Source of the DNA: a virus
Length of the DNA stretch: 21,339 bases
Reading direction: 5' to 3' (one strand)
Virus record (IMG/VR): IMGVR_UViG_3300027770_000290
Location: 1 to 21,339 of that record
Shown: positions 3,830 through 20,815 of the stretch, piece by piece
Layout: each line of letters opens with the position of its first letter
Position numbering within the stretch: the stretch's first letter is position 1
Translations under genes and position numbers: made by a program
Notes under the pieces: model-generated
Database searches by the model: none
Told to the model about the DNA's origin: nothing
What the model saw: only the letters and a program-made list of their open reading frames with translations

Positions 3830-5596
3830 ATGAATTTAACTAAAGAACAGTTATTAATGGAATATGTGAAATGTATGAGGGACACTCCTTATGCGTTGAG
3901 AACATATTTACAAACTTACGATAACACTGTTTCTAAATATGTCCCGTTAGAATTATTCCCTGACCAAGTTTCGTTACTAAATGATTACGAAACCTTTAAT
4001 GAAAATATTGCGTTAAAGTATCGTCAGGCAGGTGTATCAACAGTAACCGCCGCGTGGACATCTAAGAAATTAGTATTTGCAAAAAAAGAAAAACCTGAGA
4101 AAATCCTAATCATTGCTAACAAACTTGATACGTCATTGGAGATGGCAAATAAAATTAAGATGTTTGTTGGTCAATGGCCGTCATGGACTAATTCGGGGTT
4201 CTCTGCCGATAAGAACTCACAGAAACATTATAAATTAACAAATGGTTGTGAGGTTAAAGCGGTTGCAACATCAAAGGATGCTTTACGTGGATTTACTCCT
4301 ACCATCCTAATATTTGATGAGGCGGCGTTTATTGAAGCGGACAGTGATTTCTGGTCCGCATGTATGGCGTCCTTATCCACAGGGGGTAAGGTAATCGTAG
4401 TTTCAACACCGAATGGTTATGACCCGATTTATTACGAAATCTATGACCAAGCATTAAGAAATATGAATGATTTCAAAATTACTGAAATGTTTTGGTTTAG
4501 AGACCCCCGTTACACTAAAGATTTATATTTGGTTAAAACAGAAAATATTATTCATTATCTACTAAACAAAGAAGAATACACTCAAGACCAAATTTTAAGC
4601 TGGGAACCAATTCCTTTTGAGGAACGAAATTATGTAGACCTTAAAAAAATAATGGACGAGGGATACAAACCTTGTTCAGTTTGGTTTGAGGGAATGGTTA
4701 AAAAACTTAAATACGATAAACGTAAAGTTTCTCAGGAGTTGGAATGTAATTTCTTGGGTTCGGGAGATAACGTATTTGATTCTCTTTTAATGGAAAAAGT
4801 TCGTGAGAACATGGTTAGAGAACCGTCAAACAAAATGATGGGAAATGCTTTATGGATATGGAAAGAACCTGTTGTAGGTCATAAATATGTTATGGGTATT
4901 GACGTATCTCGTGGTGATAGTGAAGATTTTAGTTCATTTGAAATTATTGATTTTGATACAAGGGAACAAGTTGCAGAATATGTCGGTAAACTCCCACCTG
5001 ATACTATGGCGGAAATTTCTTATAAGTGGGCTAATATGTATTCATGTTTTGTTGTGATTGATATTACAGGAGGTATGGGTGTTTCCACTGCAAGAAAATT
5101 ACAAGAAATGGGTTATAAAAATCTATATATTGATGGTGTGGATTCCGCAAACAAATGGAAGTACGACCCAAAGGCCTTAGAAAAAATTCCTGGTATCAAC
5201 TTTAACAACAAACGAGTTCAGATTATTGCATCCTTTGAGGAGGTTATGAGACACGATTTTAGAATTTACAGTTCAAGACTGTATAATGAAATGAACACCT
5301 TTATTTATATGAATGGTAGACCTGACCACCAAAAGGGTCATCACGATGACTTAATCATGTCAATCGCTATGGCTACTTATGTTGCCGAATCGTCTTTTAG
5401 TAATTTAACCAAAGTTACCGAACATACTAAAGCAATGATTAATTCATGGTCGATTAGTAATAATGAATCCGTTAGTAAAGGGATTGAATTTAACCCCGTT
5501 ATTCCATATGGTGGAGAAAGAATCAATCAATTTTCAAATAGTAATGTTGGTAGAGAAGAATATGCCAAATACGGTTGGTTATTTGGTGGAAGATAA
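3830..5596 (+). CDS. Terminase large subunit (T4 gp17-like DNA-packaging ATPase/nuclease)
   Basis: This is the packaging motor that pumps DNA into proheads and cuts it to length. The N-terminal ATPase shows a deviant Walker A segment, RQAGVST (residues 65-71), Walker B ILIFDEAAF with D163/E164, and a coupling motif VSTPNG (191-196). The C-terminal RNase H-like nuclease shows its acidic residues in MGIDVSRGDS (D358), VVIDITGG (D411) and HHDDLIM (D506/D507). The 588-aa length is normal for gp17 relatives (T4: 610). In place of the usual GK[ST], the P-loop has GVS; Lys63 or Arg65 may substitute. It has its own late promoter and is followed by a 56-aa ORF and the portal gene. No small terminase is recognised in the window. 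Confidence 0.95.
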   Translation: MNLTKEQLLMEYVKCMRDTPYALRTYLQTYDNTVSKYVPLELFPDQVSLLNDYETFNENIALKYRQAGVSTVTAAWTSKKLVFAKKEKPEKILIIANKLDTSLEMANKIKMFVGQWPSWTNSGFSADKNSQKHYKLTNGCEVKAVATSKDALRGFTPTILIFDEAAFIEADSDFWSACMASLSTGGKVIVVSTPNGYDPIYYEIYDQALRNMNDFKITEMFWFRDPRYTKDLYLVKTENIIHYLLNKEEYTQDQILSWEPIPFEERNYVDLKKIMDEGYKPCSVWFEGMVKKLKYDKRKVSQELECNFLGSGDNVFDSLLMEKVRENMVREPSNKMMGNALWIWKEPVVGHKYVMGIDVSRGDSEDFSSFEIIDFDTREQVAEYVGKLPPDTMAEISYKWANMYSCFVVIDITGGMGVSTARKLQEMGYKNLYIDGVDSANKWKYDPKALEKIPGINFNNKRVQIIASFEEVMRHDFRIYSSRLYNEMNTFIYMNGRPDHQKGHHDDLIMSIAMATYVAESSFSNLTKVTEHTKAMINSWSISNNESVSKGIEFNPVIPYGGERINQFSNSNVGREEYAKYGWLFGGR

Positions 5597-5825: not shown

Positions 5826-7649
5826 ATGGAAAATAATAATAATGGTAATTTAACAGTATGGCAGAGGTTATCCCACGCATTTGGACCCAACGCCCTATTA
5901 AATCAAGATTACCCAACATATAAGTTTGACAGAAAAGAACTGTTAAAAACTCCATCAAAACAGGAGTACGATAAAGAGTTATTACAAGCTCAACAAACTT
6001 ATTATTTAGCCAATCAATGGACAAAGATTGAAAGTAATTTATATACCCAAGCGGTTTATTATGAACCAACAAGATTAGCATCTTTTTACGATTACGAATC
6101 AATGGAATATACACCTGAGATTTCCGCAGCATTAGATATCTACGGTGAGGAATCAACTACAGTTGATGAGAACGGATACATGTTACAGATTTATTCTGAA
6201 TCAAAAAGAATCAAATCAATTCTAACGGATTTATTCAATAATATTTTAGATATTAATACCAATTTACCCATGTGGACAAGAAACACTTGTAAATATGGGG
6301 ATAATTTTGTTTATTTAAAGCTTGACGCTGATAAAGGAATTGTTGGTTGTATGCAATTACCAAATATTGAAATTGAACGTTTGGAAAGAGGTATGCCAGC
6401 ACAAGCGGCAAAACAAAATATTGAAGAACCTCAAGAAAATAAAGGTTTACGATTTAAATGGAAAGTTAAAGACATGGAGTTTAATTCATGGGAGATAGCA
6501 CACTTTAGATTATTAGGTGATGATAGAAAACTTCCGTATGGTACATCTATGTTAGAAAAAGCAAGACGTATTTGGAAACAGTTATTGTTGTCTGAGGATG
6601 CGATGTTAATCTATAGAACTTCAAGAGCCCCTGAAAGAAGGGTGTTTAAAGTGTTTGTTGGTAACATGGATGATAAAGATGTTGAACCATATGTACAACG
6701 TGTTGCAAACAAGTTTAAGAGGGACCAAGTAGTTGATTCAAAAACAGGTAACGTGGACATGAGATTTAATCAAATGGCGGTTGACCAAGATTACTTTATT
6801 CCTGTGAGAGATGCCACGGCACCAAACCCAATTGATACTTTACCTGGAGCTCAAAACTTATCAGAAATTGCAGATATTGAGTATATCCAAAAGAAATTAT
6901 TAACCGCATTACGTATTCCTAAGGCGTTCTTAGGATTTGAGGAAATTGTTGGTGATGGAAAAAATTTATCTTTAATGGATATTCGTTTCGCAAGAACCAT
7001 CAATAGAATTCAAAAATGTATGATTGCGGAAATGAATAAAATTGCAATCATTCACTTATTCCTTTTAGGGTTTGAGGATGAATTATCAAACTTTACATTA
7101 GGTTTAACCAATCCATCATCTCAAGCAGATTTATTAAAAGTTGATTTGTGGAAAGAGAAAATGTTATTGTATAAAGACGCGGTTACCGCTATTGAAGGTA
7201 TTGCACCTGTATCAGTTTCATGGGCTAAAAAACATATCTTAGGATTTTCAGATGAGGAAATTAAACTTGATTTACAACAACAACGTATTGAGAAAGCAGT
7301 TGGGGCGGAATTAACTAATACTGCAACAATTATTACTCACTCAGGTATTTTTGATACTGTAGATAAATTATACGGTAGTAAGTCAGGAGCAACTGCAAAT
7401 GCGGAAGGAGCCCCACCACCACCTCCTGGAGGTGATGAAGGAGGAATGGGTATGGCTCCACCACCACCTTCAGGTCCTGAACCAGGAGGAGAAGCAGGAG
7501 TAACACCTGAATCTTATGAGAGAGATAATTTAAAAATATTATTAGAATCTGACTCATTAACTGATGAAGATTCCTACATTGATTTATCAAAAGGGAAAAA
7601 TTCTTTAGGTGAAATGGAGGAACGATTGAATAAACTTCTAAGAGATTGA
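5826..7649 (+). CDS. Portal protein (T4 gp20-like)
   Basis: This protein forms the dodecameric ring at the unique vertex through which DNA enters and leaves and on which the prohead core nucleates. The 607-aa sequence carries the block typical of gp20-type portals: SMEYTPEISAALDIYGEEST (residues 92-111), then NLPMWTRNTCKYGDNFVYLK, the SWEIAHFRLLGD region, and GAQNLSEIADIEYIQKKLLT followed by LRIPKAFLGFEE. T4 gp20 is 524 aa; the excess is mostly a C-terminal extension with Pro-Gly-rich linkers (PPPPPGG, APPPPSGPEPGG) and an acidic helical end. No promoter octamer lies immediately upstream, so it is probably read from 5597. Confidence 0.95.
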   Translation: MENNNNGNLTVWQRLSHAFGPNALLNQDYPTYKFDRKELLKTPSKQEYDKELLQAQQTYYLANQWTKIESNLYTQAVYYEPTRLASFYDYESMEYTPEISAALDIYGEESTTVDENGYMLQIYSESKRIKSILTDLFNNILDINTNLPMWTRNTCKYGDNFVYLKLDADKGIVGCMQLPNIEIERLERGMPAQAAKQNIEEPQENKGLRFKWKVKDMEFNSWEIAHFRLLGDDRKLPYGTSMLEKARRIWKQLLLSEDAMLIYRTSRAPERRVFKVFVGNMDDKDVEPYVQRVANKFKRDQVVDSKTGNVDMRFNQMAVDQDYFIPVRDATAPNPIDTLPGAQNLSEIADIEYIQKKLLTALRIPKAFLGFEEIVGDGKNLSLMDIRFARTINRIQKCMIAEMNKIAIIHLFLLGFEDELSNFTLGLTNPSSQADLLKVDLWKEKMLLYKDAVTAIEGIAPVSVSWAKKHILGFSDEEIKLDLQQQRIEKAVGAELTNTATIITHSGIFDTVDKLYGSKSGATANAEGAPPPPPGGDEGGMGMAPPPPSGPEPGGEAGVTPESYERDNLKILLESDSLTDEDSYIDLSKGKNSLGEMEERLNKLLRD

Positions 7650-7672: not shown

Positions 7673-8389
7673 ATGATTAAGTTTGGTATATTAAAATCTA
7701 AAATAGAAAAAGTGTTATTAGAGTCATATTCTAACAATACGATTAAAGACGAATTGAAAAAGTTTAAAACTAATGTTCTTAATAATAAGAATGTTAGTAA
7801 ACTTTTTTATCTATACGATGAGTTAAACTCAAATAAAGGTTTGAACGAATCAGTTGTTAGTGATTACATTAATGAGTGTACGACTATCTATGAAAACACA
7901 ATTAATAAAATTAAACCAAGTGAATTCCAAAAGATTAAATCTTGGGTTGGTAATGTGAAAACAGAAAACAACTATGAAAATGTAGATAACCTTTTCTCTA
8001 CAGATGTTTTAACTATTGAATCAAGATTAGAAAGTAGAAAGTTAATTTCCGAGTCGTTAAAGAAGAAAACTCCAATTGAAAAGAAATTTGTTAATTTACC
8101 ATTAAGTACTATGGTAAATGTCGCAAACAAAACTATTACGACTTTTATGGAGGACTTAACTGAATCTGAGAAAAAAGAATTACTATTTCTTTTATCCGAA
8201 GATGATTCAAAACTAAAAGAAAAGTTTGATTCGGTTAAAGATGAGGTTATTGTTAAATTAAACAACCTTAAAGAAAATTCTGATGAAAGTACTTTAACTA
8301 GAATTAATGAAACTATCCAAAAAGTTAGTTCTGAAAAGTACGACAAGTTAACTTACTTTAAATTAAAAGGTCTTAAAGAGACTCTTTAA
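7673..8389 (+). CDS. Probable prohead core / internal head protein
   Basis: I chose the ATG at 7673 (MIKFGILKSK) over an in-frame TTG at 7646 because a late promoter octamer lies between them. The 238-aa product is almost entirely helical and Lys/Glu/Asn-rich. It starts with an amphipathic segment ending in VLLE|S at residue 17, a candidate prohead protease site. It lies between portal and protease, where T4 has the small core genes 67 and 68, so a core role is a reasonable inference, though no family signature is certain. The gene runs head-on into the bS21 gene, and the two stop codons overlap by four bases (8386-8389). Confidence 0.7.
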   Translation: MIKFGILKSKIEKVLLESYSNNTIKDELKKFKTNVLNNKNVSKLFYLYDELNSNKGLNESVVSDYINECTTIYENTINKIKPSEFQKIKSWVGNVKTENNYENVDNLFSTDVLTIESRLESRKLISESLKKKTPIEKKFVNLPLSTMVNVANKTITTFMEDLTESEKKELLFLLSEDDSKLKEKFDSVKDEVIVKLNNLKENSDESTLTRINETIQKVSSEKYDKLTYFKLKGLKETL

Positions 8390-9141: not shown

Positions 9142-9149
9142 TATTTATT
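9142..9149 (+). promoter_or_regulatory. Putative phage late promoter variant (TATTTATT)
   Basis: AATATTTATTATT lies 14 bases before the protease ATG and has one difference from the common octamer. Confidence 0.55.
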
Positions 9150-9163
9150 ATTAAAAAATAAAG

Positions 9164-9886
9164 ATGAGTTTACAAGTTTTAAAACCTGGACAATCAGGTA
9201 AGGGAATTCTTATTGAGTTTGACGCAGGATACGTATCACCAACTACTGAGAACAATTCATATATTATGGAGTCTAAAAGTATGTTAGACCATTCCAAACC
9301 ATTTGAATTCTACGCCGTACTACAAAAATATAATACTCCAAATAGAAATGGTAGAATATACCCTGAACGTATTTTAAAAAGAGAGGCAGAAAATTATAAG
9401 AAAATGATAGAGAAGGGGACTTCATTATCAGAATTAAACCACCCTGAATCATCATTAATTGACTTAGATAGAGTTTCACACATTATCACCGAAGTTTGGT
9501 GGGATGGACCAACCTTGATGGGTAAATTAAAATTACTTACAAGTCCTGGATTCCACGAAAGAGGAATTGTATCAACTAAAGGAGATATGGCTGCGAACTA
9601 TTTAAGACAAGGGGTGACACTTGGTATATCATCAAGAGGTGTGGGTTCCTTAAAAAAAGTTGGTGAACAAAATGAAGTACAAGACGATTTTGAATTAATC
9701 TGTTTTGACTTGGTTTCTTCACCGTCAACACCAGGAGCATATCTATTCTTAAACCCTGAAGACAAAAATACCTTTGAAGAGAATATTGAAGAAGAGAAAA
9801 AAATGTCGGTTGAAAGAAATGTTGGACAGTCAGGAAACAAATCACTTGACTTAATGAAAAAATTAACCGATTATTTAGGTTATTAA
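9164..9886 (+). CDS. Prohead core protease (T4 gp21-like, peptidase S77)
   Basis: This serine protease matures the T4-type prohead by cutting capsid, scaffold and internal proteins after (I/L)xE. The 240-aa sequence shows the expected elements: YNTPNRNGRIYP near residues 56-67, the catalytic-His context LNHPESS (H93), a beta segment EVWWDGPTLMGKL, and the catalytic-Ser context LGISSRGVG (S156/S157). T4 gp21 is 212 aa, so the length is normal. The C-terminal 40 residues are acidic/basic helical and may be a removable tail, as in gp21. It is followed 12 bases later by a 70-aa gene and then a terminator. Its probable substrates are listed under the leader findings. Confidence 0.92.
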   Translation: MSLQVLKPGQSGKGILIEFDAGYVSPTTENNSYIMESKSMLDHSKPFEFYAVLQKYNTPNRNGRIYPERILKREAENYKKMIEKGTSLSELNHPESSLIDLDRVSHIITEVWWDGPTLMGKLKLLTSPGFHERGIVSTKGDMAANYLRQGVTLGISSRGVGSLKKVGEQNEVQDDFELICFDLVSSPSTPGAYLFLNPEDKNTFEENIEEEKKMSVERNVGQSGNKSLDLMKKLTDYLGY

Positions 9887-9898
9887 ACAAAAAACATT

Positions 9899-10111
9899 AT
9901 GGACGAAAAGTATTTTATTGCAAAAGTTACTATTGACTCAGTTGACTCTGAATCAGGAAAAGTAAAAAAATTAAGAGAAGAAAAATTAGTTAGAGGATAT
10001 AGCCCAACAGATGTTGAGGCAAAAGTAACTAAAGTTTTTGAAGCGTATTCTCAGGATTGGAGAATTACGGCAATTGTTGAAAGTAAAATTGATGAAGTGA
10101 TAGAAGAATAA
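9899..10111 (+). CDS. Small hypothetical protein, 70 aa (possible DUF4494 relative)
   Basis: The product begins MDEKYFIAKVTIDS and has the pattern aromatic-x-x-K-V, then KVKKLREEKLVRGYSPTDVEAKV, then a final beta/helix segment. This order (short strand, Lys-rich hairpin, 'LV.GYS.TDVEAKV' helix) recalls small Bacteroidota DUF4494-type proteins, but that is from memory and weak. It starts 12 bases after the protease stop and probably shares its transcript; a terminator follows 20 bases after its stop. The short spacing and acidic C-terminus suggest a small head-assembly factor, which is inference only. Confidence 0.65.
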   Translation: MDEKYFIAKVTIDSVDSESGKVKKLREEKLVRGYSPTDVEAKVTKVFEAYSQDWRITAIVESKIDEVIEE

Positions 10112-10275: not shown

Positions 10276-11820
10276 ATGGCAAAAGAAAAATCATTAGTAG
10301 AAGATGCAATCATTCAAATGAAAAATTTGGAAGAAGCGGTTGCCGAAAATGCAAAAGGAATACTTGCTTCAACAATGAAACAAGAAATCAAAGAATTGGT
10401 AAAAGAATCTCTATTTGAACAAGAAGACGAAGACGAGGTTGAATCAGATGATGATATGGACATGGATAACATGGACGTAGATTCAGATAACCAAGATACG
10501 GACGTTGAAGACGACATGGAAATGGACATGGATAACATGGACGATGACATGGAAGAACCAATTGACTTAACTGGCAAATCAGACGAAGAAGTTCTTCGTG
10601 TATTTCAGTTGATGGGTCCTGAGGATAATATCGTAGTAACAAAAGATACTAACGGTAATATTAACCTTAGAGACAACGAAGCTAATAAGGAATATATGAT
10701 TGTTGGTGAAAGTGAAGAAGATGAAATGGAATTAGACGAAATGTGGAATGACGAAGAAGATGAAGAAATGTCATTTAACGAAGAAGATGAATCTATTGAC
10801 GATATTGTTTCTAAAGTTTTTGGCGATGAAGACTCTGAAGACATGGAAGACATGTTTGAGCAAGAAGACGACATGGATGACATGATGGAAGATGATGACC
10901 AAGAGATTGTTTACGAAATTTCATTTGACGATGAAGAATTAGACGAATGGGGTGACTCAGAAAACAAATTCATGAAACATCACTTTAACATGGATGATGA
11001 AGATGAAACGGACATGGATGATGAAATGTCATTTGAAGACGAAATGGATTTTAATGATGATGAAGAAGACGAAATGGATTTTGAATCAATGATGGAATCT
11101 AAAATGGCAAAAAAATCTATCAAACCAAAAGGAGTTGGAATGGGAAAAGGACCTAACGTAAAAGTTTACCACGAAAAACCAAATCAAGGAACGGGTTTCA
11201 AAACAAAAATGAAACAAGGTCCAAAAGCGGTTGGAACAGGTAAGGCGAAATTTGAATATAAAGAAGGTGAAAACGCAGGTGACAAACTTGGAAATAACAA
11301 GATGGTCAAAAAAGTTGAAACCAAAGAAGGAGTTAGAACATTAGGTGCAGGAAGTAGAGCGGGTAGAAAAGGTGGTTTACCAAAACCAAGAGCACACTCA
11401 GCTTTTAACACGGCACTTAAAGAAAACGACTCAAGAGAATTAAATGTTCTTAGAGAAAAGAATGAAGAATACAGAAAAGCGTTAAACATCTTTAGAAATA
11501 AATTGAATGAGGTTGCAATCTTCAATTCAAACTTAGCATACGCTACACGTTTGTTTACTGAACACTCAACTTCAAAACAAGAAAAAATTAATATCTTAAG
11601 AAGATTTGACGGTGTAGAAACAATCAAAGAATCTAAAAACTTATACAAAGTTATTAAAGACGAACTTTCAACTACAACAAGTCAACCAATGAATGAATCA
11701 TTTGAACGTAAAATGCAAAACGTTCCTACGACAGGTTCAGCAGTTAACTTAATTGAGTCAAAAACTTATGAAAATCCTCAATTCCTTAGAATGAAAGATT
11801 TAATGGCTAAAATTAAATAA
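10276..11820 (+). CDS. Prohead core scaffold protein (T4 gp22-like), extended by acidic repeats
   Basis: The assignment rests on position between protease and capsid, as in T4 (21-22-23), and on the C-terminal helical part (after about residue 385), where the segment NSNLAYATRLFTEHS followed by KINILRRFDGVETIKESKNL has the shape of gp22-type scaffolds. The scaffold fills the prohead and is degraded by the protease. At 514 aa it is about twice T4 gp22 (269 aa). The extra length is a very acidic Met/Asp-rich region (about residues 48-280, blocks such as DMDMDNMD and MDDMMEDDD), followed by a basic Lys/Gly-rich stretch (about 282-385). The N-terminus is a helical segment ending in ESLFE|Q near residue 48, a possible protease site. 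The capsid gene follows after 34 bases. Confidence 0.8.
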   Translation: MAKEKSLVEDAIIQMKNLEEAVAENAKGILASTMKQEIKELVKESLFEQEDEDEVESDDDMDMDNMDVDSDNQDTDVEDDMEMDMDNMDDDMEEPIDLTGKSDEEVLRVFQLMGPEDNIVVTKDTNGNINLRDNEANKEYMIVGESEEDEMELDEMWNDEEDEEMSFNEEDESIDDIVSKVFGDEDSEDMEDMFEQEDDMDDMMEDDDQEIVYEISFDDEELDEWGDSENKFMKHHFNMDDEDETDMDDEMSFEDEMDFNDDEEDEMDFESMMESKMAKKSIKPKGVGMGKGPNVKVYHEKPNQGTGFKTKMKQGPKAVGTGKAKFEYKEGENAGDKLGNNKMVKKVETKEGVRTLGAGSRAGRKGGLPKPRAHSAFNTALKENDSRELNVLREKNEEYRKALNIFRNKLNEVAIFNSNLAYATRLFTEHSTSKQEKINILRRFDGVETIKESKNLYKVIKDELSTTTSQPMNESFERKMQNVPTTGSAVNLIESKTYENPQFLRMKDLMAKIK

Positions 11821-11854: not shown

Positions 11855-13747
11855 ATGGGAGCATTATTAGAATCAGGTCTTGTTGGTAACATCGGGTTAA
11901 AACACCTTAAAGTTATCAAAGAAGATACTATCAACAAATGGGATAAATTAGGATTCCTTGAAGGTCTTAGAGGCCACCTAAAAGAAAACGTAGCACAGTT
12001 GTATGAAAACCAAGCGTCTTTCTTAATCAACGAGGCTACAGGTGAAGGGTCATCAGGTTCATTCGAAACTGTTGTTTTCCCTATCGTTAGACGTGTATTC
12101 TCTAAATTATTAGCGAATGACATCGTATCTGTACAAGCAATGAACTTACCTATCGGTAAATTGTTCTATTTTGTACCTAAAATCCAAGGTTACACAGGAG
12201 GTACTGCACAAACACCAGGTAATGGTTATGCAGGTAACTCAGGTGAACATTACGGTCCTATTGGAGCGGTTGATGGACCAACTGCACAAGATGGTCAACA
12301 AGGTGTTGGTTACGGAGCGACTTCTACTTACGGTAAGAAAAATCTTTATGATTTATTCTACGAAGGAAACGAAGGTCAATTAGACCCTCCAGGATTGTTT
12401 GACTACTCTAAAGGTCAGTGGACTGCAGTTACTGCATCAACTGTAATGCAAGTTTGGTCAAATGGAGCATTAATTAATTCTAACGGTTCTGATTTTGATA
12501 ATCAAAATGTTAGAAAAATTATTGTAGTAATGTCAGGTTTCGCAGACACAGGAGCTGGTAAATTAATCGGACCTGATGGTAACGAAATGGACTCAGAAAC
12601 TTTCTTAGCGGACTTAAGAATTTACGCAAATGGTGCTTATAATGACTCTACATGGTCAGCAAGTACCGCATCAACTGAATGTCAAAACGCATTTAACGCG
12701 GCTCACCAACCAAATTCATTATTGTTCAGAGTTGTTACTCAACAATATGGTCAAGGTATCGTTGCAGGTTTAAATAGTTCAGCAAACGCATCATTCCCTG
12801 CGAATGGTAACGGTGGTAACTACAACAATGTTTGTAATGCGAATGGTTATATCTTCTTAGAAGTTGACTTGTCTTGTCCTGTATGTGCTACTTGTGGTGC
12901 TGGAACATTAGATGGTTACACAGGTACTACTTTAGGAGCTGATGTTGACCCTGATGCGTTTACTGCAGTATTCAGACGTTACCAAGAATTAGAATTTGAA
13001 GACAAAATCGGTGAGGTTTCTTTTGAATTGGATTCTGTAACAGTTTCTGTATCTGAAAGAAAATTAAGAGCACAATGGTCTCCTGAGTTAGCTCAAGACG
13101 TTGCGGCTTTCCACAACATTGACGCTGAAGCTGAATTAACGGCTTTATTGTCTGAACAAGTTGCGGCTGAGATTGACCGTGAAATTTTACGTGACTTACG
13201 TAAAGGAGCGGCTTGGAACCTACGTTGGGATTACAACGGATGGAGAAGAATTGCTAACACAACTAACTACACTCAAAAAGACTGGAACCAAACATTGATT
13301 ACTGCAATCAATCAGTTGTCAGCACAAATCCACAAATCTACCTTAAGAGGTGGAGCTAACTGGATTGTTGTTTCTTCTGAGGTTTCTGCAATCTTTGATG
13401 ATTTAGAATACTTCCACGTATCTAACGCGTCTCCTGAGCAAGACCAATACAACATGGGTATTGAAAGAGTTGGTACATTAGCTGGTCGTTACCAAGTTTA
13501 CCGTGACCCTTACTTCCCACCAAACCAAGTTTTGATTGGACACAAAGGAACGTCATTGTTAGATACAGGTTACATCTACGCACCATACGTACCATTACAA
13601 TTAACACCTACAATGTATAACCCATTCAACTTTACACCGATTAAAGGTATAATGACAAGATACGCGAAAAAAATGGTGAACAACCGTTTCTACGGACGTA
13701 TCACTGTTGATGGAGTACGTACATTCGATTTAAGAGAATTGAGATAA
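11855..13747 (+). CDS. Major capsid protein (T4 gp23-like)
   Basis: This protein forms the hexamers of the head shell. The match to gp23 is clear in two blocks: SFLINE|ATGEG then FPIVRRVFSKLLANDIVSVQ (residues 55-94), and LRAQWSPELAQDVAAFHNID followed by AEAELTALLSEQVAAEIDRE (404-443). The propeptide cut is predicted after E60 (LINE|A), matching T4 gp23, which is cut after E65 in FLTE|A. At 630 aa it is longer than gp23 (521 aa); the extra lies mainly at residues 112-375, a Gly/Asn-rich surface-like insertion containing CPVCATC (341-347) plus C276 and C327. The translation start is A-rich without a Shine-Dalgarno. A strong terminator follows. Confidence 0.95.
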   Translation: MGALLESGLVGNIGLKHLKVIKEDTINKWDKLGFLEGLRGHLKENVAQLYENQASFLINEATGEGSSGSFETVVFPIVRRVFSKLLANDIVSVQAMNLPIGKLFYFVPKIQGYTGGTAQTPGNGYAGNSGEHYGPIGAVDGPTAQDGQQGVGYGATSTYGKKNLYDLFYEGNEGQLDPPGLFDYSKGQWTAVTASTVMQVWSNGALINSNGSDFDNQNVRKIIVVMSGFADTGAGKLIGPDGNEMDSETFLADLRIYANGAYNDSTWSASTASTECQNAFNAAHQPNSLLFRVVTQQYGQGIVAGLNSSANASFPANGNGGNYNNVCNANGYIFLEVDLSCPVCATCGAGTLDGYTGTTLGADVDPDAFTAVFRRYQELEFEDKIGEVSFELDSVTVSVSERKLRAQWSPELAQDVAAFHNIDAEAELTALLSEQVAAEIDREILRDLRKGAAWNLRWDYNGWRRIANTTNYTQKDWNQTLITAINQLSAQIHKSTLRGGANWIVVSSEVSAIFDDLEYFHVSNASPEQDQYNMGIERVGTLAGRYQVYRDPYFPPNQVLIGHKGTSLLDTGYIYAPYVPLQLTPTMYNPFNFTPIKGIMTRYAKKMVNNRFYGRITVDGVRTFDLRELR

Positions 13748-13913: not shown

Positions 13914-16202
13914 ATGAAAAAATATATTATATTTTTATTTTGTTTCTTATATAGTTTTATAGGAAGTACTCAAGTTAGTTATTACACATTTGGAACATCA
14001 ACAGGAACCTATACACCAATAGTTGGTGGTAGTAATTACGATAACTTTACAAGTTGGTCAAATACAAATTTTTTAGATGATAATAATTCATCTGCTTTAG
14101 AATCAATAGGTTTTAATTTTGTTTATAATGGAACTACTTATACTCAATTTGCAGTTAATACTAACGGATTTATAACATTAGGTGCGTTACCAACTAATAG
14201 TTATTTACCACTATCCACAGGTACGTCAAATAATGTAATATCCGCAATGGGAGCTGACTTAATAGGTCGTGGTTCTTTATTAGCAAATAGAACTTCAGGT
14301 AGTGCGGTAATTACAATTACAGGTGGTGACATATCTTTAATATCAGTTGGCGATAAGGTAAGTGGTACGGGTATTCCTGCAGGTGCTACGGTACTATCTA
14401 AAACCGCAACAACTGTAACAATTTCAGCAAATGCCACAAGTGCTGGTACAGGGTTTCATTTTAGATTTAGTAGGTCAGGATTTGGTATTAGATTTCAAAC
14501 AATAGGAACATCTCCAAATAGGACATTAGTCGTTCAATGGACAGGATGGCAAAGATATACCACAACAGGTGGTTTTGGTGAATTATATAACTTTCAGATA
14601 AGATTAAATGAGACCACAAATACAATCAACGTGGTCTATAATATACAAGGGCCAACAAGTACTACCTCAACAACATTTCAGGTAGGTTTAAGAGGAAGTA
14701 CGAACACTGATTTTAATAATAGATTAACAACAACAAATTGGTCATCAACAACCGCAGGAACATTAAACAGTTCAACGGTGGCAATTTCAAATACAGTTAA
14801 ACCAACTTCAGGTTTAACATACATTTGGACACCACCTTCGGTTCCATCAAATGATGCTTGTGTAAATGCAACCTTGTTATCATTACAATGTCCTGGCTCA
14901 TCTACAGGAACTATAGGGACAACAATCGGTTCAATTACTACAGATGGTCTACCCAACCCATCTTGTGATGCCTCAGGAACAATTAGAGATGTATGGTATT
15001 ATTTCACAACGGGAAATGATACAGAACTTAAACTTTATGCAACATTAGGAACTGCAACATGGGTTGGGGTGGAAATATATACATCTTGTGGAACGTTAGC
15101 AACAGGATTAAATACTTCATGTGATTTTAATATTTTATCACCAAACCCAACAAATATTACAGGATTATTAATGAATACCACATATAGGATAAGAATCTTT
15201 ACCAACGTTTCATATGATACTCCAGGAACTTTCACAATATATCTTAACACTGTAAATAATACGTCAACATTATCTTCCTCTGTTGGAACTAATAATCAAA
15301 CTTTGTGTAAGAATACACCTATCACCAACATTACTTATAACACTAAAGGTGCGACAGGTTCTACTTTTTCAGGTTTACCTACAGGTGTTACAGGAAGTTG
15401 GAATGGTAATGTGGTAACAATAACTGGTACTCCTTCAGTTTCAGGAACCTTTAATTATGTTGTAACACTTACAGGTGGATGTGGAACTGTAACGTCAAAT
15501 GGGACAATCACAGTAAATCCTACCGTCTCTACAATATCCACAATCAATGGAAATCCAAATATAATTGCGGGAACAACAGAAAACTATTCAATACCTTCAG
15601 ACCCAAACGCTTCTACATATCAATGGGATTATAGAGAAAGTAGTGTGTCAAGTTGGGTTACAAATGTATCAAACACAAATTCAGTTAGTATTACTTGGCC
15701 AACAACAACTACAGATGGTGAAGTATTGGTTACAGTTTCAAATAGTTGTAATACTGTAAACAAAAATTTATTAATTCATGTGGATGGGGTTTTACCTGTT
15801 GAGTTATTATTTTTTGAAGGTAAACCTGTTTTAAATACAAATTATTTATATTGGTCAACCGCATCGGAGCATAATTCCGATTATTTTGAAATCTTAAATA
15901 GTACAAATGGTGAAGATTGGGAAAATATTGGAAATGTTACCTCATCAGGAAATTCAACGGTTAAGAACAATTATGATTTTTATCATTTATCACCTTCACG
16001 TACAATTAATTATTACATACTGAGACAAGTTGATTATGATGGAGTATTTAAAACTTATAGTCCTATTGTTATTGATAATCGAATTGGTGGTAAAAAAATA
16101 ATTAAATACACGAATCTACTTGGTCAAGAAGTTGGTCCTGATGAAAAAGGTATAATTTTTATTATTTACGAAGACAATTCTGTGATAAAAACCATTAAAT
16201 AA
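13914..16202 (+). CDS. Secreted Bacteroidota-type surface protein with T9SS-like C-terminal domain
   Basis: The 762-aa protein starts with a classic signal peptide (MKKYIIFLFCFLYSFIG, probable cut before or near TQVSYYT). Next comes a beta-rich N-terminal region (to about residue 310), a segment beginning NDACVNATLL with Cys pairs and the DVWYYFT motif common in Bacteroidota surface proteins, a PKD/Ig-like segment with CKNTPI and GTPSVSGTFNYVVTLTGGC, and a C-terminal part starting LPVELLFFEGKP near residue 627. It ends in NLLGQEVGPDEKGIIFIIYE plus a short basic tail, which resembles T9SS C-terminal sorting domains. The predicted fate is export through Sec and then T9SS to the host cell surface. 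It carries a phage late promoter and lies directly after the capsid gene, so it looks like a moron (an accessory gene carried with its own promoter). A virion adhesin is possible, but the signal peptide argues for host-surface display. Confidence 0.85.
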   Translation: MKKYIIFLFCFLYSFIGSTQVSYYTFGTSTGTYTPIVGGSNYDNFTSWSNTNFLDDNNSSALESIGFNFVYNGTTYTQFAVNTNGFITLGALPTNSYLPLSTGTSNNVISAMGADLIGRGSLLANRTSGSAVITITGGDISLISVGDKVSGTGIPAGATVLSKTATTVTISANATSAGTGFHFRFSRSGFGIRFQTIGTSPNRTLVVQWTGWQRYTTTGGFGELYNFQIRLNETTNTINVVYNIQGPTSTTSTTFQVGLRGSTNTDFNNRLTTTNWSSTTAGTLNSSTVAISNTVKPTSGLTYIWTPPSVPSNDACVNATLLSLQCPGSSTGTIGTTIGSITTDGLPNPSCDASGTIRDVWYYFTTGNDTELKLYATLGTATWVGVEIYTSCGTLATGLNTSCDFNILSPNPTNITGLLMNTTYRIRIFTNVSYDTPGTFTIYLNTVNNTSTLSSSVGTNNQTLCKNTPITNITYNTKGATGSTFSGLPTGVTGSWNGNVVTITGTPSVSGTFNYVVTLTGGCGTVTSNGTITVNPTVSTISTINGNPNIIAGTTENYSIPSDPNASTYQWDYRESSVSSWVTNVSNTNSVSITWPTTTTDGEVLVTVSNSCNTVNKNLLIHVDGVLPVELLFFEGKPVLNTNYLYWSTASEHNSDYFEILNSTNGEDWENIGNVTSSGNSTVKNNYDFYHLSPSRTINYYILRQVDYDGVFKTYSPIVIDNRIGGKKIIKYTNLLGQEVGPDEKGIIFIIYEDNSVIKTIK

Positions 16203-16216: not shown

Positions 16217-16630
16217 ATGAATACTTTAAGAGGATTAATTAAAGAGAATCTTTTATTAGAAAAACGAATTGGTCAGCTATCCGCAAACTTTGAGATTGTT
16301 ATGGGGTTTGATATTATTACCACCAAACACTCTAAAGATAGAGGAAGTGGTAGAGACCTTGAAAATTATAATCAAAGACCTGTTGAGAATAGAGAAATTG
16401 TTGAGGTTGTTAGTCTATTTAAAAAGGAAATTGCTGAGAAAATTATTATGGGGGAAATAAAAGACCAAGATAATTTTGTTGTTATATCAAACCAATGGGA
16501 ATTGGCAATGCCGATAATTGCTGAAAAGGAATCAAACACTTATTGGAAACTTATTATCAAATCAGTATTCAGACAATCAGAAACTCACAAATTTTTATAC
16601 GGAAGAGACCAAGTGGTTTTGGAAAAATAA
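16217..16630 (+). CDS. Hypothetical protein with leader-like N-terminus, possibly delivered effector
   Basis: The 137-aa product begins with a helical segment MNTLRGLIKENLLLEKRIGQ that contains IKE and LLE sites of the (I/L)xE type. The rest is a compact alpha/beta domain: TTKHSKDRGSGRD (H38, R42), a helix with EIVEVVSLFKKEI, a strand FVVISNQWELAMPII, a strand YWKLIIKSVF, and the end FLYGRDQVVL. This order loosely recalls small nuclease-toxin folds with an H-x-x-x-R motif, but I cannot confirm it. Starting at the next ATG (16301) would remove the leader. The gene lies between the T9SS protein and three likely internal proteins. Confidence 0.65.
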   Translation: MNTLRGLIKENLLLEKRIGQLSANFEIVMGFDIITTKHSKDRGSGRDLENYNQRPVENREIVEVVSLFKKEIAEKIIMGEIKDQDNFVVISNQWELAMPIIAEKESNTYWKLIIKSVFRQSETHKFLYGRDQVVLEK

Positions 16631-16762: not shown

Positions 16763-16770
16763 TATTTATA
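16763..16770 (+). promoter_or_regulatory. Putative phage late promoter (TATTTATA)
   Basis: GATATTTATAAATA lies 14 bases before the ATG at 16785, inside a 21-base inverted repeat (GATATTT/AAATATC, 16761-16781). It diverges from the host-type promoter at 16711-16740. Confidence 0.65.
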
Positions 16771-16784
16771 AATAAAATATCAAA

Positions 16785-17381
16785 ATGAAAAAGATTTATC
16801 TTAATGAAGAACTTAACTCAATGAAATACCTTTTTGATTATAAGAGAGGTAGAGTTATTTCTGAACAAGTCACCTATTATAAAGGTTCCGATGGTAAAGT
16901 TGGAGTTCTTAATGGACCGTACGCTTTACCACAAGGTGCAACTGCGATTAGTCAACAAGAGTATAATACTGCGTCAAGTACTTCTCCACAAGTCTCTCAA
17001 CAACTTTTACCACAACAAATGACTCAATCTACAACACAAACAACTACTGTAGCACCTACCACAACACAAACAACTACTGTAGTACCACAATTAAAAGGTT
17101 CTCACGGTGGTGATTACGTTAAACAAGCCCAAACTCTTTTAGGTGTTACCGCGGATGGTAAATTTGGACCTAAAACATTGGAGGCTTTAAAAACTAAAGT
17201 TGGTTCATCAACTACCGAAACAACAACCGCCAAATCTGCGGATGCGTCTACTGAAAATTCACAGACATCAACAACTCAACCTGTACAAGGAGCCCAACCT
17301 GTACAAGGAGCCCAACCTGTACAAGGAGCCCAACCCGCACAAAAAGTAGATAAAGGGGATAGTAGTTCTGTCGCACCGTAA
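16785..17381 (+). CDS. Putative internal virion protein 1: leader plus peptidoglycan-binding-like domain
   Basis: The 198-aa product starts MKKIYLNEELNSMKYLF and reaches RVISE|Q at E27, a fit to the prohead protease rule. A Gln/Thr-rich linker follows with a duplicated TTTQTTTV segment. Residues about 106-140 show a peptidoglycan-binding-like (PGBD) pattern, GGDYVKQAQTLLGVTADGKF then GPKTLEALKTKVG. The C-terminus has three tandem PVQGAQ repeats and ends DKGDSSSVAP, close to the end of the third protein of this set (DKGESSSASV). It has its own late promoter. There is no signal peptide, so it is probably not exported by Sec; packaging in the head or action in the envelope during entry or lysis are alternatives. 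Confidence 0.8.
   Translation: MKKIYLNEELNSMKYLFDYKRGRVISEQVTYYKGSDGKVGVLNGPYALPQGATAISQQEYNTASSTSPQVSQQLLPQQMTQSTTQTTTVAPTTTQTTTVVPQLKGSHGGDYVKQAQTLLGVTADGKFGPKTLEALKTKVGSSTTETTTAKSADASTENSQTSTTQPVQGAQPVQGAQPVQGAQPAQKVDKGDSSSVAP
17031..17082 (+). repeat. Duplicated 22-base segment in the Thr/Gln linker
   Basis: Identical 22-base copies lie at 17031-17052 and 17061-17082, encoding TTQTTTV repeats. Confidence 0.9.
17277..17330 (+). repeat. Three perfect tandem copies of an 18-base unit
   Basis: The unit CAACCTGTACAAGGAGCC is repeated three times without change and followed by a degenerate partial copy; it encodes QPVQGA repeats. Confidence 0.95.
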
Positions 17382-17401
17382 AACAATTCCAAATAAACAG
17401 A

Positions 17402-17409
17402 TATTTATA
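17402..17409 (+). promoter_or_regulatory. Putative phage late promoter (TATTTATA)
   Basis: GATATTTATATATT lies 18 bases before the ATG at 17428. Confidence 0.65.
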
Positions 17410-17427
17410 TATTAAACAAAGGTAAAA

Positions 17428-18333
17428 ATGAAGAAATTATATTTTTTAAATGAAGAAGAATCAAACAGAATTTTGAATCTTCACAAAAACGCAACTAAGA
17501 AACAATACTTGTCTGAACAAGTTTCAAATGACCAAGAATTAGATGAAATTGATTGGGGTAGTGTTGGTACAGGTGCCGCGGCGGGAGCTGCAGGTGGAGC
17601 CATAGTAGGAGGTGTTGGTGCGATTCCAGGAGCTATTATTGGTGGTGGTGCGGCGTTACTAAGTCAAGCATTTGGTGGAAGTTATTCTGCGGATGCTGCC
17701 AAAAAAATATTATCCGCTTGTAATAGTAAAGGTCAAGTTGGTCCTCCTCAAATGGATAGACAAACATTAAATGGTATTGCTGACGCGATTAACACTGCAA
17801 TAGAAGGTTTGGGTACTGATGAAAATGCCATTAAAACTAATTTAAGTAAAATCCAATCAATACCTGATTTATGTGGTATGGCGAAAACTTATCAAACAAG
17901 ACACGGAGAATCTTTATTTGATGCGATTGATGGTGATATTGATAGTCCTAACGAATGGAAAACATACGTATTTTTACCATTGTTAAATGCTTATGAAAAC
18001 ACTAAAGAAGCCGCAGCGAAAGTTAAACAAGATACAGGTGGTGGAGATGTTGCAACAAATGCACAAAAATGTGGATGGGGTACTGACGTTGAGGGTTATA
18101 AAAACTCGGGATGGAAATGTCCAAAACCTGGTACTAAAGTTAATACAGGTGGTGGCGGAGGAGGTACTACCTCATTGGCACCTAAAATTAAAGCAATTCA
18201 ATCTAAAGTTGGTGTTACTCAAACAGGTACTATGGACCAATCGACCATAGACGCATTAATGACTAAAATAAATGGTGGTTCTGTACCAACTCCTCAAGCG
18301 GCACCTACACAACCAAGTAATGTTGCTCAATAA
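17428..18333 (+). CDS. Putative internal virion protein 2: leader, glycine zipper, annexin-like repeat, peptidoglycan-binding-like domain
   Basis: In the 301-aa product four parts can be seen. Residues 1-30 are a leader, MKKLYFLNEEESNRILNLHK to YLSE|Q (E30). Residues about 44-84 are a Gly/Ala zipper (GTGAAAGAAGGAIVGG...AIIGGGAALL), able to insert in or pack against membranes. Residues about 115-188 resemble one annexin repeat: IADAINTAIEGLGTDENAIK, a helix, then SLFDAIDGDID with acidic residues (D168, D170, D172) where annexins place the Ca2+-capping acid about 38-40 residues after GxGT. Residues about 250-283 (APKIKAIQSKVGVTQTGTMD to MTKIN) are a degenerate PGBD pattern. Cys residues occur at 98, 149, 215 and 231. 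The gene is flanked by two proteins with related leaders and PGBD-like modules. Confidence 0.8.
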   Translation: MKKLYFLNEEESNRILNLHKNATKKQYLSEQVSNDQELDEIDWGSVGTGAAAGAAGGAIVGGVGAIPGAIIGGGAALLSQAFGGSYSADAAKKILSACNSKGQVGPPQMDRQTLNGIADAINTAIEGLGTDENAIKTNLSKIQSIPDLCGMAKTYQTRHGESLFDAIDGDIDSPNEWKTYVFLPLLNAYENTKEAAAKVKQDTGGGDVATNAQKCGWGTDVEGYKNSGWKCPKPGTKVNTGGGGGGTTSLAPKIKAIQSKVGVTQTGTMDQSTIDALMTKINGGSVPTPQAAPTQPSNVAQ

Positions 18334-18360
18334 CAAATTAAAAATACAACAAAAAATATT

Positions 18361-18696
18361 ATGAAAAAAAGATTAGTTATAACTGAAGGAGAAAGGTCAA
18401 AAATCCTTAACATGCACGGATTCAAACAAATGATTTCTGAAGCAACTTTGGCGGACGTTCAAACGGCATTAAATAGTAAATTTGGTGCGGGTTTAACGGC
18501 TGATGGTAAACTTGGTCCTAAAACAATTGCTGCGATTGAGAGAGCGTTAGGTGGTACACCTGTTACTCCTACGAGTGGGTCAACTGAAACCGACATTAAA
18601 TTAACTCCAAAACCTGTAAAACCTATTGATATTAATCGTGGTCCTACCGACCTTGCGACGGCAGACAAAGGTGAAAGTAGTAGTGCATCAGTTTAA
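18361..18696 (+). CDS. Putative internal virion protein 3: leader plus minimal peptidoglycan-binding-like domain
   Basis: The 111-aa product starts MKKRLVITEGERSKILNMHG and reaches MISE|A at E27, the best fit to the prohead protease consensus among the leaders. The PGBD-like pattern starts immediately after it: LADVQTALNSKFGAGLTADG then KLGPKTIAAIERALGG (residues about 30-65). A Thr/Pro-rich linker follows and the end is DKGESSSASV, matching protein 1. No promoter octamer lies in the 27-base gap upstream, so it probably shares the 17402 transcript. Its stop overlaps the opposing methylglyoxal synthase stop. It looks like a stripped-down version of the first protein, which suggests duplication. 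Confidence 0.8.
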   Translation: MKKRLVITEGERSKILNMHGFKQMISEATLADVQTALNSKFGAGLTADGKLGPKTIAAIERALGGTPVTPTSGSTETDIKLTPKPVKPIDINRGPTDLATADKGESSSASV

Positions 18697-19305: not shown

Positions 19306-19313
19306 TATTTATA
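19306..19313 (+). promoter_or_regulatory. Putative phage late promoter (TATTTATA)
   Basis: GATATTTATAAGT lies 22 bases before the ATG at 19336, in a divergent intergenic space. Read the other way it is TATAAATA, 9 bases before the 19296 start, so it may work both ways. Confidence 0.6.
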
Positions 19314-19335: not shown

Positions 19336-19776
19336 ATGTTAAGAGATATCGTAAATAAGGTGAAGAAGGAAATCCTCAAAGAAGCTACAGGTGATTCAAG
19401 TGGTAGTAGAGGCTCTTATATTGGTCCATTATCGCCAGGGGTTAAAGAATTTGATAAAAACGCCTTGGCACCATTTAATACACCTGTATCAAAATATAAT
19501 GATGCAATGTTAGAGTATGATAGTTACGATGGAAAAATGGATGAAACCAAAAAACAAATTAAGAAGATTGAAACTAAAGCAAAGAAACAATCTGACTATC
19601 TTAAAAAACATCCTAACCTAACATCAAGTGATGATGACGGTAATAACATTAATCAAACTCCAGGTTATAAAAAAACTTTTGTCCCTATTAAAGAAGTTGG
19701 GAAGAAAAAGAAAAAGACTCAAAATGAGTCTTTACATGATTTAATTAAATCCGTCCTGAGAGATTCCTTCAGATAA
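19336..19776 (+). CDS. Hypothetical Lys-rich phage protein with leader-like N-terminus (146 aa)
   Basis: The product starts with a short amphipathic helix, MLRDIVNKVKKEILKE|A, in which E16 fits the (I/L)xE prohead protease rule and is followed by a Gly/Ser turn. The middle has a coiled-coil-like KKQIKKIETKAKKQ segment, and a basic KKKKKT patch precedes a C-terminal helix (SLHDLIKSVLRDSF) that looks like the N-terminal one. No domain is recognised. It is the only plus-strand gene in the right-hand minus block and has its own late promoter, so it probably belongs with the virion proteins. Its last 36 bases overlap the convergent 19741 gene. Confidence 0.7.
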   Translation: MLRDIVNKVKKEILKEATGDSSGSRGSYIGPLSPGVKEFDKNALAPFNTPVSKYNDAMLEYDSYDGKMDETKKQIKKIETKAKKQSDYLKKHPNLTSSDDDGNNINQTPGYKKTFVPIKEVGKKKKKTQNESLHDLIKSVLRDSFR

Positions 19777-20235: not shown

Positions 20236-20502
20236 TTATTTTTTACGTTTGGTCTCGTTCATTAAAAAATCAAAAACTTGGTCAATAGATTCTTTTGCGG
20301 TTGCGATATGGTCTTGAGCCCAATCATGTCCGTTTTCTAAAATATCATGAATTTCTTCTTCATCAAGATTAAGTAACAAACCTGTTTGTCTATGTATTTG
20401 TTGTAAATTACTAAAGAACATATATCTATCATTCTCTTGTTCTTTAACAACTTTAGAAATTAGTCTTGTTAATTCAGATTCATTTATTCTTATTACTTTC
20501 AT
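20236..20502 (-). CDS. Small phage protein with MKK-type leader, 88 aa
   Basis: The product begins MKVIRINESELTRLISKVVK then E21|Q, which lines up with the leader of the gene just upstream and with the plus-strand internal-protein leaders. Here the protease-site position is Val rather than Ile/Leu. The mature part is helical and acidic, with LLLNLDEEEIHDILENGHDW and a basic end (ETKRKK). Its start lies one base from the end of the upstream gene, so they form an operon. The function is unknown; a packaged or prohead-associated role is inferred from the leader only. Confidence 0.7.
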   Translation of the reverse strand: MKVIRINESELTRLISKVVKEQENDRYMFFSNLQQIHRQTGLLLNLDEEEIHDILENGHDWAQDHIATAKESIDQVFDFLMNETKRKK

Positions 20503-20503
20503 G

Positions 20504-20815
20504 TTAATCTTTGATTTTGTATGTATTCATGAACGCCTTTTCAGCGTAATCTAAAAACTTATCTCCGTAGATACGACATAATCTGTTCATAACTAATTGA
20601 GGATTCTTTCTCATATAACGAAGAATATCTGCAGGTATTTGTTCATCATACTTGCCGAATATCCCTTGTATCTGTTTTTCTCTTGGAATCATTTTTACAT
20701 GTGGTTCCACAGTGAATTCAGGTTCTCCAATTGTATCATCAAATTCCTCTTCATTAAGAACTCTCTTAACAATTCTATTTAAGTCCGATTCAGTTAATCT
20801 TACAACTTTTTTCAT
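20504..20815 (-). CDS. Small phage protein with MKK-type leader, 103 aa
   Basis: The product begins MKKVVRLTESDLNRIVKRVL then N21-E22|E23, an LxE site. This is the clearest example of the leader pattern (MKK-hydrophobic-(L/I)-(T/N)-E-(S/E)...(I/L)xxxxxx-(I/L)xE). The remainder has a Pro/Glu-rich linker, then PREKQIQGIFGKYDEQIPAD and a helical end (YGDKFLDYAEKAFMNTYKIK). No known domain. It lies five bases after the preceding minus-strand gene and one base before the next, in a tight operon entering from the right edge. Confidence 0.7.
   Translation of the reverse strand: MKKVVRLTESDLNRIVKRVLNEEEFDDTIGEPEFTVEPHVKMIPREKQIQGIFGKYDEQIPADILRYMRKNPQLVMNRLCRIYGDKFLDYAEKAFMNTYKIKD

Follow-up and report, generated by a model that had tools for sequence, protein, structure and literature searches.

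In bacteriophage T4, the protease gp21 cuts after (I/L)xE. The short N-terminal segments that target T4 proteins to the capsid (CTS) are sufficient for packaging and are removed by gp21 (PMC9026906), and both the function of the CTS and its cleavage by gp21 are established (PMC9026906, PMC3012670). The internal proteins (IPs) of T4 are injected and inhibit type IV restriction enzymes, and the signal sequence of T-even phages has already been used to find ip genes (PMC12373910). Head propeptides are also known from giant phages of the phiKZ/SPN3US type, where an S77-related protease cuts them after E as the head matures and where they are believed to be a targeting aid (PMC5694885). Besides these known elements (CTS function, gp21 cleavage and giant-phage propeptides), the leaders described below appear to be new: a literature search for the leader motif and related concepts found no paper on them (journal coverage was incomplete).

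We analysed a 21.3-kb virus contig, hereafter (in its whole length) the window, which carries the head module of a T4-like phage. The window DNA had no megablast match in INPHARED; close relatives are abundant in IMG/VR. Among annotated isolates, Flavobacterium phage immuto, Microcystis phage Mel-JY01 and Rhodothermus phage RM378 come closest, along with uncultured huge phages. The main components of the head module are listed below, a slash within a motif marking a known-type or predicted cut.

3830 to 5596, plus strand: terminase large subunit, gp17-type (Pfam PF03237, 1.6e-11)
5826 to 7649, plus strand: portal, gp20-type (Pfam PF07230, 6e-76)
7673 to 8389, plus strand: probable core protein in the gp67/68 position ([IL]xE, 11 against 4.9 expected)
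9164 to 9886, plus strand: S77 gp21-type prohead protease (Pfam PF03420, Peptidase_S77, 2.2e-23; PHROG head maturation protease, 8e-44)
10276 to 11820, plus strand: acidic scaffold/core protein in the gp22 position, placed between protease and gp23, with N-terminal ELVKE/S
11855 to 13747, plus strand: major capsid protein gp23, with LINE/A at E60 (Pfam PF07068, Gp23, 6e-74)

Both the protease and the capsid protein site had been named in the original prediction, and both were borne out. The protease scored 83.2 bits against the Pfam S77 model, above the cut-off of 27, and LINE/AT was invariant in all 25 of the 25 distinct gp23 homologues listed. The N-terminus of the protease (window 9164-9272) carries a conserved I-x-E site, SYIME/S, at E36 (YIMES, LIRES or YILES in homologues), possibly a self-cleavage site; self-cleavage has been proposed for T4 gp21. 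The scaffold protein contains 11 [IL]xE motifs against 7.3 expected, and is, by inference, a candidate receptor for the leaders. [IL]xE was in 2.08-fold excess in the family of the 7673 product (63 homologues) and in 2.39-fold excess in that of a 70-residue protein encoded between the protease and scaffold genes (9899-10111). Being rich in the motif, both families resemble core proteins that get cut into pieces: the 9899 product is probably a further core protein and substrate of the protease, and the 7673 product, which had been put forward as leader-bearing, was rejected in that role and is more probably a core protein and multi-site protease substrate. Directly after gp23, 13914-16202 encodes a 762-residue protein with a signal-peptide-like start (MKKYIIFLFCFLYSFIGSTQ) and a late-type motif upstream; by eye, its C-terminus is like the sorting domains of Bacteroidota type IX secretion, which is unusual in a phage head region.

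Three consecutive ATG ORFs (16785-17381, 17428-18333 and 18361-18696) are present as predicted, and start with related segments of 27-30 residues ending in VISE/Q, YLSE/Q and MISE/A. The six additional starts proposed with them fared unevenly: 20236 and 20504 are genuine members on the minus strand and 19336 is plausible, whereas 7673, 16217 and 1424 were dropped. At 16217 phi-x-E is at chance level, probably because [IL]xE near the N-terminus is common in control proteins, falling in residues 6-30 of 30% of them; at 1424 the sites are in excess all along the protein. The following leaders were retained.

16785 to 16865, plus strand: class B leader of ORF 16785-17381, MKKIYLNEELNSMKYLFDYKRGRVISE/Q, predicted cut after E27 (VISE/Q)
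17428 to 17517, plus strand: leader of ORF 17428-18333, MKKLYFLNEEESNRILNLHKNATKKQYLSE/Q, predicted cut after E30 (YLSE/Q)
18361 to 18441, plus strand: leader of ORF 18361-18696, MKKRLVITEGERSKILNMHGFKQMISE/A, predicted cut after E27 (MISE/A)
19336 to 19383, plus strand: probable short leader of ORF 19336-19776, MLRDIVNKVKKEILKE/A (EILKE/A)
20440 to 20502, minus strand: class C-like leader of ORF 20236-20502, MKVIRINESELTRLISKVVKE/Q (KVVKE/Q), shorter form
20750 to 20815, minus strand: class C leader of ORF 20504-20815, MKKVVRLTESDLNRIVKRVLNE/E (KRVLNE/E), shorter form

When the 17428 protein was aligned with 10 relatives, the first 30 residues were nearly invariant and the bodies hardly aligned, and the class B leader of 16785 is also found on other bodies in four loci (L072, L083, L311 and L319). 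Relatives of 19336 begin differently, with MINKIKDIVKQILKE/A and MIDDKLIKKILRE/A, both short starts ending L-x-E/A.

Judging from sequence alone, we consider it about 85% probable that the 27-30-residue starts, together with the 21-22-residue forms of 20236 and 20504, are N-terminal capsid-targeting propeptides of the S77 system. In the best reading, the leader system would work like the T4 CTS, being unrelated in sequence, larger and lineage-specific. The leader, which consists of a short strand and an amphipathic I/L/V helix, is inferred to dock the nascent cargo on the prohead core or scaffold; once the shell forms, the S77 protease would cut it after phi-x-E (the site comes from the sequence, the cut is inferred), and the mature protein would be freed inside the head and stay there. 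The cargo would presumably be injected with the DNA, an inference from T4 (PMC9026906, PMC12373910). No virion proteome was found for the clade; what the leader docks on, whether it is really cleaved, where in the virion the proteins reside, their injection and the function of the cargo are all inferred. The reading, already that of the original prediction, is supported by (i) a modular leader that ends sharply where the cut is predicted, (ii) the gp23 site and (iii) association with S77, and is also backed by (iv) avoidance of the cleavage motif, (v) a head-type upstream motif and (vi) exchange of leaders on the same body.

The modularity was examined by scanning IMG/VR with DNA patterns for two leader forms, restricted to the first 9-12 residues. 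Both forms matched abundantly, the class C pattern ('RLTESDL', residues 1-12 only) in at least 120 stretches, and a codon-scrambled pattern of the short form matched none. Two control patterns gave zero matches, and one of them was used to gauge chance; control contigs came from a third pattern. At residues 13-22 of class C, left unconstrained by the pattern, E22 occurs in 90% and I/V/L at position 20 in 98% of the 139 distinct proteins listed, and the first phi-x-E ends exactly at residue 22 in 116 of these 139. Conservation, computed from one protein per body family (117 class C families without mutual blastp similarity, among the matches listed), amounts to 1.7-4.3 bits at each position through E22, and drops to 1.2 at residue 23, 0.8 at residue 24 and then ~0.3-0.5. 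A segment common to otherwise unrelated proteins is what characterises a T4-type CTS, and the class C leader, ending at E22 across the 117 body families, qualifies. Leaders have mostly I/L/V at P3, V being among the residues that occur there, and E at P1.

The class C consensus is MKKIIRLTESDLTRIVKRVIxE, and classes A and B take the forms MKK..YFL.EEEK.RILNLH...YLsE and MKK.LNEELN..KYLFdYkrGrVISE. Statements on class A rest on a later sequence set, the first class A pattern having also matched the protease N-terminus. Class D (MKIIITESQYRLILE) is less uniform: phi-x-E ends at about residues 14-16 in 125 of 183 proteins, and 13 of the 183 are without phi-x-E near the start. Two tandem paralogue arrays, L082 of contig G003 (1-3093) and L329 (1845-6798), have mostly MKIIINERQLRQIIE/S starts of class D and look like an expanding cargo-like family. 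Codons of leader C are synonymously diverse, which indicates that selection acts on the peptide and not on a translation signal.

These data bear on two ways of explaining the leaders without any function. Short phi-x-E starts might arise by chance, E, I, L and K being common in AT-rich phage proteins, and the 30% of control proteins with an early [IL]xE fit this idea; the scrambled pattern with its zero matches and the frequency of E22 at an unconstrained position leave it hardly any credence, and for classes A, B and C it is already contradicted. That the leader is a functionless recombination hotspot or the fossil of a gene duplication is very unlikely: arrays of paralogues with the same start do exist, as described above, but the 117 body families have no detectable mutual homology (among the matches listed), the leader codons are synonymously diverse, and E22 and P3 are retained while other positions vary.

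Neither the 23-residue consensus leader (tblastn) nor the 17428 protein had a match in INPHARED, and thus no annotated isolate with the same cargo is known there. Among bacterial genomes of 84,980 species we obtained five pattern matches: a phage-like contig of 3 kb, a pair of isolated genes, and two in which no leader ORF was seen. The isolated class C leader genes, possibly phage remnants, lie in Bacteroidales and Prevotella assemblies (L476 4619-5005, minus strand; L480 6395-6958). No S77 was found in the four bacterial assemblies tested.

Leader exchange gives the boundary a second line of support. Bodies that are homologous to one another have a class C leader in one locus (L200) and class D leaders in two others (L349 and L287), and are alignable from the predicted P1' onward. 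In orthologues of 20236, the leaders vary from 14 to 22 residues, every one ending in phi-x-E right before the conserved body. ORF 20236-20502 itself is truncated relative to its orthologues (L101, L195, L018 and L062), which have ~65 further residues with a YPSAYANGYAVQVC domain. The C-terminal domain of the family forms a protein by itself, leaderless, in the small Pelagibacter and Prochlorococcus phages HTVC023P, HTVC027P and P-SCSP2, in which no S77 match was found, and in the huge phage LR756502 a relative of the N-terminal domain sits behind a different start, MENIKSFDSFNE. In the S77-bearing cyanophage Sf-CH8, the domain follows a long N-terminal part with no obvious leader, so that the comparison across phages is supportive, not clean. 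The 20236 family is also not depleted in [IL]xE (19 against 9 expected).

A cargo that shares the prohead with an active protease is expected to avoid [IL]xE in its mature part. Class C bodies contain 127 such motifs against 171 expected, a ratio of 0.74 (0.65-0.85); the ratio is 0.76 in class A/B bodies and 0.94 in class D bodies, and the remaining proteins encoded at these loci have 1.20-1.21. None of 5000 label permutations was as low as the class C depletion, which is absent for V/F/M/A at P3, D/Q/K/N at P1, other spacings and the reverse order. In the window, the bodies of the 16785 and 18361 ORFs have no [IL]xE. A model-free N-terminal [IL]xE excess in contig G016 was not significant. 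Cleavage-motif avoidance in mature proteins amounts to a genome-only test for prohead residence.

The protease and the leaders also occur together, as the original prediction required. S77 was found in 33 of the 43 leader contigs that reach 100 kb or more (17 of 17 at 230 kb or more), against 1 of 8 unselected control contigs of at least 100 kb (Fisher p 0.001; the control is small). Thirty S77-negative leader contigs (13 of 93-215 kb, 17 of 36-47 kb) were tested for terminase and T4 portal. Twenty-nine of them have neither, and in the remaining contig, G044, the sequence breaks off within the portal gene, short of the protease position; we read them as fragments that lack the head module. A Pfam search for gp23 in ten S77-negative leader contigs gave no match and is uninformative by itself. 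Leaders common in phages without the protease would have refuted the reading, and no complete counterexample was found among the tested contigs, whose completeness is unknown. In the related S77-bearing contigs G004 (59 kb) and G005 (104 kb), 0 and 1 leader were seen, respectively, and both are fragments. At this point we can weigh the leader as a docking tag for the tail, baseplate or portal, its phi-x-E end being either incidental or nothing more specific than a helix cap. The modularity could be accounted for by a docking helix alone, and the docking partner is unknown. We nevertheless regard such a tag as unlikely, as conservation ends exactly at phi-x-E, the leader contigs are associated with S77, and the bodies should be depleted in the protease motif only when they encounter the protease within the prohead.

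An upstream motif is common to leader genes and head genes. TATTTAT, mostly as TATTTATA, lies 12-45 bases upstream of protease genes (98%), scaffold genes (96%), core genes (85%) and terminase genes (80%). It precedes 55% of leader genes against 17% of other genes (p 2.6e-9), and its reverse complement is not similarly enriched. We infer that it is a candidate late promoter of the clade of the window, where copies lie 11-30 bases ahead of gene starts.

3809, plus strand: TATTTAT before the gp17 gene
7650, plus strand: TATTTAT before the core gene
9142 to 9148, plus strand: TATTTAT before the protease gene (candidate late promoter)
10247, plus strand: TATTTAT before the scaffold gene
13893, plus strand: TATTTAT before ORF 13914
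16206, plus strand: TATTTAT(A) before 16217
16763 to 16770, plus strand: TATTTATA, candidate late promoter of leader gene 16785
17402 to 17409, plus strand: TATTTATA, candidate late promoter of leader gene 17428
19306 to 19313, plus strand: TATTTATA, candidate late promoter of gene 19336

The motif is missing before 18361, 20236 and 20504, and is present upstream of the 19336 gene in 9 of 13 homologues. The TATTTAT(A) candidate is the reverse complement of TATAAATA of T4. Alternatively, the leader might do its work within the infected cell, whether in import into a phage compartment, in the binding of a partner, or in stability or translation, without any link to packaging, and some bodies are indeed enzymes or regulators able to act there (HNH endonuclease, NUDIX, sigma factor). 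A packaged protein can, however, be an intracellular enzyme, as T4 Alt is (PMC9026906). The head-type upstream motif, the motif avoidance in the bodies, and synonymous codon variation that points to protein-level selection and no translation signal, make a purely intracellular role quite unlikely in our judgement.

If the leaders are capsid-targeting propeptides, the three adjacent ORFs of the window would deliver the following cargos.

16866 to 17378, plus strand: predicted mature cargo of the 16785 ORF, Thr/Gln-rich linker plus peptidoglycan-binding-like motif (residues 112-138)
17518 to 18330, plus strand: predicted mature cargo of the 17428 ORF, Gly/Ala-rich segment, annexin-like stretch and C-terminal peptidoglycan-binding-like repeat
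18442 to 18693, plus strand: predicted mature cargo of the 18361 ORF, peptidoglycan-binding-like motif

Pfam gave PG_binding_3 (3e-4) and PG_binding_1 (0.0075) for the first, neither reaching curated cut-offs; Annexin (2e-5, at cut-off), DUF6861 (6.9e-5) and PG_binding_1 (0.12), the latter two below cut-off, for the second; and PG_binding_3 (0.0021, below cut-off) for the third, whose motif is shared in alignment A6. In none of the three cargos did PG_binding_1 or PG_binding_3 pass the curated cut-off (13-21 bits against 23-24.6). The motif is conserved in relatives, and the cargos may perhaps bind peptidoglycan, an inferred function that we treat as a lead only.

The expectation of a large packaged set is supported by searches with leader profiles, which detect 25 genes in one contig (141 kb) and 27, 24 and 15 in three more (322, 214 and 156 kb, respectively); in other fragments of the clade the number is 0-6. 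One limited IMG/VR sample contained 188 body families. At least 65 of 78 class C proteins are without any Pfam match, and the remaining bodies include peptidoglycan-binding, LysM, lysozyme, transglycosylase, NUDIX and OmpA-like domains. Sigma-factor and homing-endonuclease matches were found in the C plus D set and not in class C alone, and thus belong to D-type starts. We lean slightly towards the broader view that leaders of the T4 superfamily are lineage-specific and interchangeable, with only the protease site in common, and that the clade of the window and related huge phages each pack ~15-30 proteins for injection.

Injected phage proteins are hard to recognise because they have nothing in common. 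Those of T4 were found via a common leader, and here a different, far larger system would be readable from metagenomic sequence. If the reading is correct, it would reveal hundreds of families of injected effectors, most of unknown function, including cell-wall binding or hydrolysing proteins, NUDIX proteins and possibly sigma-factor and ADP-ribosyltransferase-like proteins. Finding the injected genes of uncultured phages would become a sequence search, reading the labels would give a catalogue of injected phage proteins, and the leaders could serve as packaging tags for Bacteroidota phages.

The closest parallel is T4, in which IPI, IPII, IPIII and Alt likewise bear, on otherwise unrelated proteins, a short N-terminal segment ending in (I/L)xE. 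T4 likewise has an S77 protease and a gp23-type capsid, with cargo bodies poor and core proteins rich in [IL]xE (8 against 10.2 expected in IPI-III plus Alt, 24 against 10.2 in gp22/67/68, and an overall ratio of 1.27; the numbers are small). The sequences themselves differ. The T4 CTS is MKTYQEFIAE, whereas the leaders of the window clade have 14-30 residues with a beta-strand and an amphipathic helix; they do not fall within the T4 family MKTYQEF(I/L)xE, only MK... and the final phi-x-E being common, and the leader profiles found no match in a 62-kb portion of T4 that contains ipI-III and alt. T4 has about four leader genes, against 15-27 in each of four large window-related contigs, and unlike T4 the window-related phages carry several leader classes in one phage. 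Propeptides of the phiKZ/SPN3US type are mostly >100 residues, cut at (A/S)xE, and few.

Two other S77-bearing phages likewise have unrelated proteins with a common start ending in phi-x-E, their leader sequences being different. In the huge phage LR756508, at least 12 small genes around S77 start with MKxxExKLRxIIRxE, many reaching phi-x-E (leader form MKxxExKLRxIIRxEhxxhhxE). A further stretch of that phage (L520, 37697-43576) encodes paralogues that start with MRLKEILLE/N or MKFKELLKE/Q followed by RGT-containing bodies, which by eye only resemble ADP-ribosyltransferases and recall T4 Alt. Flavobacterium phage immuto has shared starts of its own, e.g. MENFDLKKFLVENKLTxNSKxLxE; gp083 and gp230 start alike with MKKQILSEQF(R/K)RMQ.LAGIITE/S, and gp003, gp076 and gp077 with MENFDLKKFLVENKL...E. 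Taken together with T4, these starts suggest that each lineage may use its own leader code under a common cleavage rule.
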